DNA of 47,162 nucleotides from Natronococcus amylolyticus DSM 10524 (GTDB lineage: Archaea; Halobacteriota; Halobacteria; Halobacteriales; Natrialbaceae): positions 11,822 through 58,983 of the forward strand of contig NZ_AOIB01000018.1 in assembly GCF_000337675.1 (NCBI RefSeq). The letters are read 5' to 3'. A program made the translations under genes and the position numbers. Shown here piece by piece: positions 33,263-34,921 of the stretch (position 1 is the first letter of the stretch; each line of letters opens with the position of its first letter). Below the pieces are notes generated by a model that was not told where the DNA came from, did no database searches, and saw nothing but the letters and a program-made list of their open reading frames with translations.

Positions 33263-33859
33263 ATGGTCGACGTTACCGCGGAGATCCTGCTGTTCGACGG
33301 GTTCGACGAACTTGACGCCATCGGGCCCTACGAGGTCCTCGCAAACGGTGCCGAGGCCGGCGCCTCCCTCGAGGTTCGGCTCGTTACGCTCGAGGACGCG
33401 GACCTCGTCACGGCGAGCCACGAGCTTCGTGTGGAACCCGACGGCACGCTCGGCGAGCCGGACCTGCTGGTCGTCCCCGGGGGCGGGTGGACGAGCGACG
33501 ACGGCGGGGTGCGAACCGTCGTCGACGACGGTTCGGTTCCGGACGCCGTCGACGAGCGCTTCGCAGGGGGTGCGACGGTCGCGTCGGTCTGTACCGGCGC
33601 GATGATCCTCGCCGAGGCGGGGCTACTCGAGGGTCGTCCCGCGACGACCCACCACGACGCGCTTGCGGACCTCGAGGAGTCGGCCGCGAACGTGGTCGAG
33701 GAACGGGTCGTCGACGACGGCGACGTGCTCACGGCCGGCGGCGTCACGGCCGGGATCGATCTGGCGCTGTGGCTGCTCGAGCGCGAGTTCGGCGCCGAGG
33801 TCGCCGAGGCGGTCGAGACGGAGATGGAACACGAACGTCGGGGCGAGGTCTTCGGCTAG
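33263..33859 (+). CDS. DJ-1/PfpI family protein
   Basis: A 198-residue class I glutamine-amidotransferase-like protein. The nucleophile elbow is VASVCTGAMILAEAGLLEG with cysteine 110, and VVPGGGWTSDD and TAGGVTAGIDLALWL are family hallmarks. The CTGAMIL/GGVTAGIDLALWL pattern resembles the isonitrile hydratase and GlxA-type subgroup rather than the PfpI protease. It lacks the C-terminal AraC domain of GlxA regulators. Precise activity is unknown. Confidence 0.88.
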   Translation: MVDVTAEILLFDGFDELDAIGPYEVLANGAEAGASLEVRLVTLEDADLVTASHELRVEPDGTLGEPDLLVVPGGGWTSDDGGVRTVVDDGSVPDAVDERFAGGATVASVCTGAMILAEAGLLEGRPATTHHDALADLEESAANVVEERVVDDGDVLTAGGVTAGIDLALWLLEREFGAEVAEAVETEMEHERRGEVFG

Positions 33860-34030
33860 GCGTCGTTGGGAGGACGACTTTCACCCCGTCTCGAGGTTCG
33901 ACCGAGTGAACCAACTCGTTACGTAGCGATTGCGAATGGAACACTGCGGAAAGTGCTAAGCATCCCGAGCGAAGCGAGCGGTTCACCGCCGGAGCGGGGT
34001 GAAACCCTGCGACGGCGGCCTTTTGGCATC

Positions 34031-34145
34031 ATCAGAACCGCTTCACGGTTCTGATTAGCAGTCAGAACGCGTTGCGTTCTGACGACATCAACGGGTTTTG
34101 CCGGGGGTTGAGGTTGGCGTCTACGACGCCAACCGATGCCCCCGG
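34031..34145. repeat. Cluster of three perfect 10-bp hairpins
   Basis: Three successive perfect inverted repeats occur: ATCAGAACCG/CGGTTCTGAT (34031-34055, 5-base loop), GTCAGAACGC/GCGTTCTGAC (34061-34083, 3-base loop) and GGTTGGCGTC/GACGCCAACC (34112-34134, 3-base loop). The third is enclosed by CCGGGGG (34101-34107) and CCCCCGG (34139-34145). The first two share the word CAGAAC. Dense short hairpins with tiny loops are typical of IS200/IS605-type transposon ends, of MITEs and of structured RNAs. No transposase gene adjoins, so a remnant or a non-coding element is possible. Confidence 0.6.
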
Positions 34146-34233
34146 TAAAAGAGGTTGCTGTACATATCGCATTCGTCTTCTGAGTGACTTGCCGACGGAA
34201 CCACCCGGCGGCGCACGTACGACGGCCAAACGG

Positions 34234-34264: not shown

Positions 34265-34921
34265 ATGAGTGCAGTTCTGTTCGATATGGACGGCGTGCTC
34301 GTCAACTCCGAGGACTACTGGGTCGAGTTCCAGCGCGAGGAGATCCTCCCCGCGGCCGTCCCCGACGAGGACGTCGACGTCGCCGAGGTCAGCGGGATGA
34401 ACTACGCCGAGATCTACGACTACCTCGAGGAGGAGTACGGCACCTCGATCTCCCGCGAGGAGTACCTCCAGAAGTTCAGGGAGGCGGCCGAGGAGCTGTA
34501 CACCGAGCGCGTCGACTTACTCGAGGGGACCCACGACCTGCTCGCCGAACTCGACGATCGGGGCGTGCCGACAGCCGTCGTCTCCTCCTCGCCACACGAC
34601 TGGATCGGGATGGTCCTCGAGCGCTTCGAGCTCGAGGGGGAGTTCGACGAGGTGATCAGCGCCGAGGAGATCGACGGCGACAGCAAGCCCGAACCGGACG
34701 TCTTCGAGTACGCCGCAGAGGAGGTCGGCGTCCCCGCCGACGAGTGCGTCGTCGTCGAGGACTCCGAGAACGGTATCGAGGCGGCCGACCGCGCGGGCAC
34801 GATCGTCGTCGCCTACCGGATCGACGCCCACGGCGACATCGACTACTCGCCGGCCGATCGGACCGCTGACACGCCGGCCGAGGTTCGGGAGGCGGTCCTC
34901 GAGCTCGTCGAGGAGACGTAG
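34265..34921 (+). CDS. HAD family hydrolase, beta-phosphoglucomutase-like
   Basis: A 218-residue haloacid-dehalogenase-superfamily phosphatase. Motif I is FDMDGVLVNSE with nucleophile D7 and acid D9, motif II is VVSSSPHDW, motif III contains the lysine of DSKPEPDVFEYAAEEVG and motif IV is VVVEDSENGIEAADRAG. A helical cap lies between motifs I and II (about residues 15-80), as in subfamily I phosphatases and beta-phosphoglucomutases. The substrate is not predictable. It stands alone after the hairpin cluster. Confidence 0.9.
   Translation: MSAVLFDMDGVLVNSEDYWVEFQREEILPAAVPDEDVDVAEVSGMNYAEIYDYLEEEYGTSISREEYLQKFREAAEELYTERVDLLEGTHDLLAELDDRGVPTAVVSSSPHDWIGMVLERFELEGEFDEVISAEEIDGDSKPEPDVFEYAAEEVGVPADECVVVEDSENGIEAADRAGTIVVAYRIDAHGDIDYSPADRTADTPAEVREAVLELVEET

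Follow-up and report, generated by a model that had tools for sequence, protein, structure and literature searches.

A modular palindromic repeat of haloarchaea with exchangeable hairpins, a putative portable transcript-end element

INTRODUCTION

The BOX repeats of Streptococcus pneumoniae are assembled from modules in the order boxA-boxB(n)-boxC (PMC3049150). They share with the haloarchaeal repeat described here a modular, non-autonomous, and interspersed character, a variable number of inner hairpins, strong RNA-like folds, and an enrichment between convergent genes. The two differ in that BOX modules keep their own sequence, whereas in the haloarchaeal repeat the stem sequences are exchanged completely and layout and linkers are kept. 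The haloarchaeal repeat is furthermore archaeal and GC-rich and shares no known sequence with BOX; we liken it to BOX by its working and not as a family member. A similar likeness in working, rather than membership, connects it to the SPRITE repeats of Streptococcus (PMC3049150), which also combine a hairpin with a T-run near gene 3′ ends; unlike SPRITE, it carries several hairpins in a row and T-runs on both strands, and it is spread across an entire order.

The PATEs and SMRs of Haloquadratum walsbyi (PMC3119063) are likewise haloarchaeal, transposase-free, mobile repeats, the SMRs having inverted ends, no known transposon, and a length of ~110 bp (PMC3119063). By their descriptions both stand apart from the present repeat, which has no IS605-like ends as in PATE, is longer than the ~110 bp of an SMR and multi-hairpin, and, unlike PATE/SMR, was not located within an IS605 element in any case seen. 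A further parallel is offered by the Rickettsia palindromic elements (reviewed in PMC10969869), since one hairpin pair of the haloarchaeal repeat, here called A/B, is also found in-frame in unrelated proteins; that pair measures ~57–60 bp versus ~150 bp, is haloarchaeal, and encodes SQNAxRSDD.

Here we analyse a copy in Natronococcus amylolyticus DSM 10524, contained in a stretch of 47,162 nucleotides that we call the window. That it belongs to a dispersed non-coding repeat between haloarchaeal genes is well supported. Our preferred reading, to which we assign a probability of roughly 0.45, is a haloarchaeal palindromic repeat, modular and non-autonomous, whose hairpins are rebuilt or swapped and which putatively serves as a portable transcript-end element. 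By analogy, it probably resembles the streptococcal BOX/SPRITE repeats in how it works, acting putatively at transcript 3′ ends. No description of the family was found in the open-access literature searched or in Rfam, which at its curated threshold gave no match in the window, and as far as these sources go the repeat is undescribed. If the preferred reading is true, a structured repeat that is common in haloarchaea, and apparently unannotated there, moves between loci and may set the transcript ends of core genes.

ARCHITECTURE OF THE WINDOW ELEMENT

The element occupies positions 33918–34166 on the + strand, with approximate ends (GTTACGTAG... and ...GTTGCTGTACATA) placed by reference to copies elsewhere in the genome. 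It sits in the Natronococcus genome between a DJ-1/PfpI family gene (33263–33859, + strand; Pfam PF01965, E 1.2e-28) and a gene for a HAD-superfamily hydrolase (34265–34921, + strand; Pfam PF13419, E 1e-32). An earlier note had drawn attention to three perfect 10-bp stems with loops of 3–5 bases, one of them inside a 7-bp outer stem. All were found at 34031–34055, 34061–34083, and 34101–34145, as was the CAGAAC common to the first two, and they represent three of the five stems of a single element. Absent from that note were two imperfect stems, HP1 and HP2, directly upstream; because these adjoin the noted hairpins, the unit is taken to run from GTTACGTAG at 33918 as far as ~34166, a length of ~250 bp.

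From its left end, the element on the + strand begins with the boundary motif GTTACGTA (33918–33925), which several copies mirror with a right-hand TACGTAAC; in the window copy the left motif is retained and the right one is missing. HP1, CCCGAGCGAAGCGAGCGG (33964–33981), has a GAA loop and a tandem GA/GA internal loop and is slightly decayed in the window copy. The same internal loop recurs in HP2, CCGCCG-GA-GCGGGGT-GAA-ACCCTGC-GA-CGGCGG (33986–34018), which is followed by the conserved linker CCTTTTGGCATC (34019–34030) with its T-run. Next comes an optional 59-bp twin-hairpin insert (34031–34089), preceded by CATC (34027–34030), ending in CATC (34086–34089), and falling between CATC and AACGGG. 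Its hairpin A, ATCAGAACCG-CTTCA-CGGTTCTGAT (34031–34055), has a perfect stem, 34031–34040 with 34046–34055, and a loop of 5. The 5-nt linker TAGCA (34056–34060), of a length common at hairpin-B sites, leads to hairpin B, GTCAGAACGC-GTT-GCGTTCTGAC (34061–34083), with a perfect stem, 34061–34070 with 34074–34083, and a loop of 3. HP3, TTTTG-CCGGGGG...GGTTGGCGTC-TAC-GACGCCAACC...CCCCCGG-TAAAA (34096–34150), was delimited by sequence and stem search. Its inner perfect 10-bp stem pairs 34112–34121 with 34125–34134 across a loop of 3, and its outer 7-bp stem (CCGGGGG, 34101–34107; CCCCCGG, 34139–34145) is lengthened by TTTT/AAAA.

The window is GC-rich and lone perfect 10-bp hairpins are not rare there: six with loops of 3–8 were counted, against a mean of 2.3 and a maximum of 7 in order-3 Markov shuffles. 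Although single hairpins are unremarkable, the clustering is beyond chance, as had been claimed; from the shuffle rate, three within 115 bases are estimated at ~4e-5 per window. The 255-nt stretch 33916–34170 also folds far better than its dinucleotide shuffles (z −8.4 as RNA, −7.4 as DNA).

COPIES AND DISTRIBUTION

A sequence search of the Natronococcus genome returned 16 match rows at ~9 places. Besides the window copy these include C13:302863 (90% identity), C13:317557-317839, C5:68787-69013, C2:8259-8537, C21:162978-163263, C13:120318, and C13:259814, with a further weak copy on C9. The copies at C2, C5, C13:317k, and C21 (L005–L009) contain one N, on both sides of which repeat sequence is duplicated, and are probably assembly (scaffold) joins inside repeats. 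Hairpins A and B are missing from most copies (e.g., L017 and L096), and copies without the A/B insert match the window element over both flanking segments.

Among relatives, 32 of 61 genomes gave matches. A covariance model (R1), which represents the three stems HP1-HP2-HP3 of the core and was built from 19 short cores, found matches in 135/195 Halobacteriales genomes, covering 49/67 genera. In a phylum-wide sample of 197 genomes, the 25 with matches all lie within Halobacteriales, and R1 gave no match in the sampled genomes outside that order. R1 E-values are rough, and copy numbers are lower bounds since 16 candidates were scored per genome.

STEM TURNOVER WITHIN A FIXED LAYOUT

Aligned copies follow the pattern GCATnCG-HP1-TTCACC-HP2-CCTTTTTTCATCGAAG-TTTTTT-HP3-AAAAAAGTTCG, or a T4 variant of the core, CCTTTTGGCATCAACGGGTTTT...AAAAGAGGTT, which is the form of the window copy. 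Within this layout the stems turn over. Double compensatory changes affect 12 of 34 consensus pairs in the 19 short cores (RNAalifold), and 57 parsed elements carry 42 different HP3 arms, 33 HP2 arms, and 18 HP1 arms. Between distant genomes the stems are near perfect, yet unrelated in sequence, while the linkers, T-runs, and strand-specific tandem G-A internal loop persist. It is unusual for a structure to survive when its sequence is wholly replaced, and one may ask whether RNA or folded DNA is the target of selection.

A strand-neutral count of paired cells over the 57 elements gave 1279 Watson–Crick pairs and 137 others (10 G-T, 7 A-C, and 120 of other kinds, a class that takes in the conserved internal loop), and the tandem GA/GA loop was present in 47/56 elements against 2/56 with its opposite-strand equivalent TC/TC, all these counts being descriptive because related sequences are not independent. 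The near absence of wobble pairs and the lack of strand bias fit upkeep at the DNA level better than RNA selection. A plus-strand RNA reading of the G-U cells in the RNAalifold table was dropped, the strand-neutral count being unbiased.

These data bear on two other explanations. An order-wide structured RNA family, whether a non-coding RNA or a 3′-UTR riboregulator conserved for RNA function rather than a repeat, would suit the conserved architecture, the covariation, the presence in 49/67 genera, and the strand-specific GA/GA loops. We consider it improbable in view of the few G-U pairs, the missing Rfam match, the occurrence within single genomes of several near-identical copies whose flanks differ, and the presence or absence of copies at orthologous sites. 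The second holds that these are purely selfish palindromic repeats, SMR/MITE-like and devoid of host function, with stems kept by template-switch correction during replication and a 3′-end location that reflects tolerance. Quite possible, though short of even odds, it draws on stems that are almost pure Watson–Crick without strand bias, and on loops and inversions such as hairpin flipping gives. Palindrome correction should, however, erase GA mismatches, whereas the GA/GA loop and the T-linkers are held on one strand across unrelated stems.

The loops in question are 3 nt long and toggle between complements, for example GAA/TTC and GGA/TCC, on otherwise identical stems; the near-identical copies L097 and L098 have the inside of HP3 in opposite orientations.

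MOBILITY AND EXCHANGE

The earlier note had suggested, as possibilities, a transposon end of the IS200/IS605 kind, a MITE-like remnant, or an orphan TnpB guide-like RNA. Across 52 loci from 13 genomes (22 with TnpA domains and 30 with TnpB domains, taken with ~1.5 kb on each side), neither BLASTN nor the covariance model detected related ends, and with 0/52 such loci the IS200/IS605/TnpB reading is unsupported. One related copy among the 52 (L091) lies ~500–650 bp downstream of a tnpB as an independent element, and the stretch between them is not tnpB; it is the single instance of the proximity to tnpA or tnpB that the note had proposed as a check, near the gene and not adjoining it. No tnpB adjoins the window copy or the L091 copy, where a TnpB-RNA scaffold would be expected, and stems wholly different between copies are at odds with descent from the guide scaffold of a single TnpB. 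In favour of an IS200/IS605 remnant, a PATE, or an orphan TnpB guide RNA are the hairpins near the ends, the lack of a visible target duplication, the richness of haloarchaea in IS1341-type genes (with 20 TnpB-domain matches in the Natronococcus genome itself), and the PATEs described in Haloquadratum (PMC3119063). Given the 0/52 loci, the unconserved stem sequences, and the inverted-repeat ends of several copies, we regard this origin as very improbable; the absence of related ends led us to reject it. What survives of the MITE-like description is a dispersed, transposase-free, structured repeat with many copies and one empty site, without the tie to IS200/IS605/TnpB.

That empty site, which the note had proposed to seek in relatives, belongs to another copy, at C13:302863. 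Where the Natronococcus genome has ~350 bp, a sister species (G005) has a 5-bp gap and another relative (G006) ~30 bp, which indicates that the units move or are exchanged; the G005 site is too diverged to show a target-site duplication. Two further genomes (G004 and G007) hold other inserts at this site. These inserts and several copies share outer arms, CAGTAG...GTTACGTA and TACGTAAC...CTACTG, known from other loci. In Natrononativus amylolyticus (G009), four nearly identical copies have differing flanks and sharp left ends. For the window copy itself the relatives offer no comparable empty site, their synteny next to the HAD gene being different. The modules, too, come and go at one site, for which the orthologous loci L126 (G000 C13:317k) and L101 (G004 C45) provide direct evidence: with both flanks in common, the former has the A/B insert and the latter lacks it, and HP1/HP2 also differ between the two. 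The cores of L105 and L108 carry other inserts. The repeat resembles BOX both in its dispersed copies with empty sites and in its fixed outer modules around an optional, variable inner hairpin module.

The empty and swapped sites, together with the outer imperfect inverted repeats CAGTAG...CTACTG round several copies, also suit the selfish-repeat explanation. Under our preferred reading, the core is the row HP1-HP2-T-linker-HP3, further hairpin modules, A/B among them, can join it at fixed linkers, and the + strand would fold into a row of hairpins. Copies would spread, and hairpins would be rebuilt or swapped, through an activity on folded single strands, for which a trans-acting recombinase and template switching during replication are candidates. 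Homologous recombination between repeats could be part of the exchange. No mobilising enzyme was found, nor any matching transposase at the tnpA/tnpB and arm-flanked loci examined.

Entire genes, too, are flanked or adjoined by the outer arms CAGTAG...GTTACGTA and TACGTAAC...CTACTG, at G000:C21:59132-61100 (L312) and at L313, L316, L319, and L321. They are a SelO gene, a lipoprotein-like, a response-regulator-like, and a subtilase-like ORF, and an AT-rich ORF, and a gene-cassette system is possible.

GENOMIC CONTEXT AND A PUTATIVE ROLE AT TRANSCRIPT ENDS

Gene orientations were read from a simple codon-usage caller, whose calls are approximate, with neighbours named by eye. A first set comprised 33 copies, mostly from Natrialbaceae; 26 have an upstream gene pointing at the element, and 15 sites are convergent versus 2 divergent. 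A distant set of 40 loci includes 12 convergent, 11 divergent, and 15 codirectional arrangements. The divergent arrangement was confirmed at the orthologous loci L329, L330, and L347, with a start codon ~48 nt from the element, and a Natrononativus plasmid copy lies between divergent genes by annotation. Because some copies are thus placed, a strict two-way terminator for convergent genes only was rejected as a general rule.

The end of HP3 falls 2–6 nt from a stop codon in ~13/40 distant loci, in other families, and the genes ending there are unrelated (UvrB-like, IF-2-like, EngB-like, and PcrB-like, by eye). In many copies HP2 is followed by T5-T6 and then C, and on the other strand the neighbouring gene's stop codon is soon followed by a T-run. 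Both features fit the T-stretch termination of Haloferax volcanii, where, in vivo, termination reaches 95% of transcripts at a T5C stretch and 59% at a hairpin (PMC7237163). The T-runs of the window copy are only 4 long, shorter than T5C, and judging by this sequence it may be weak or inactive as a terminator.

As the repeats are frequent at gene 3′ ends and their T-runs can be read on both strands, we tentatively picture a portable transcript-end element, either a terminator or a 3′-UTR structure, that genes on either side could use; on sequence grounds we hold this putative terminator role to be a little less than an even bet. A 3′-end location is also typical of tolerated parasites, as argued for BOX/RUP (PMC3049150), and for that reason counts against the role. 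Selfish-repeat behaviour is its main rival, and by analogy with what is argued for SPRITE (PMC3049150) the two need not be exclusive. Purely selfish repeats are hard to square with the tight abutment on stop codons in distant families.

HAIRPIN B WITHIN AND BEYOND THE REPEAT

Of 243 Halobacteriales genomes, 31 contain the hairpin-B pattern, CAGTCAGAACGC-N(2-8)-GCGTTCTGAC, and the reversed control matches none. A scan of ~85,000 species located 91 stretches, haloarchaeal throughout among the matches listed; viral carriage was discarded, IMG/VR yielding 0 matches. Around ~101 hairpin-B sites (202 rows, both strands), 81 are preceded, over a 5-nt linker, by another near-perfect hairpin, 52 are followed by one over a 7-nt linker, and these constant linkers indicate that hairpins are built into arrays with fixed spacing.

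Hairpin B also lies within the ORF of unrelated proteins (L130, L135, L154, L158, and L159, at position ~1501), where it encodes SQNAxRSDD in-frame; the hosts appear by eye to be histidine-kinase-like, P450-like, and diphthine-synthase-like, and the reading frame looks broken in L134 and L141. Such a module in proteins would be an archaeal parallel of the Rickettsia palindromic elements. A broader formulation seems somewhat unlikely as a whole: an order-wide haloarchaeal element class that exchanges hairpin cassettes, keeps its architecture, T-linkers, and G-A loop, acts as a putative two-way transcript-end signal, and has a twin-hairpin module that also occurs in-frame in proteins.

In one gene family (...NIEKLS*; L149, L150, L151, and L153) the genes carry tandem A/B units at their 3′ ends, the gene end being repeated after each unit. 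The draft genome of Halobacteriales archaeon QS_8_65_32 (G159) contains 23 exact hairpin-B patterns, against 0–6 elsewhere.
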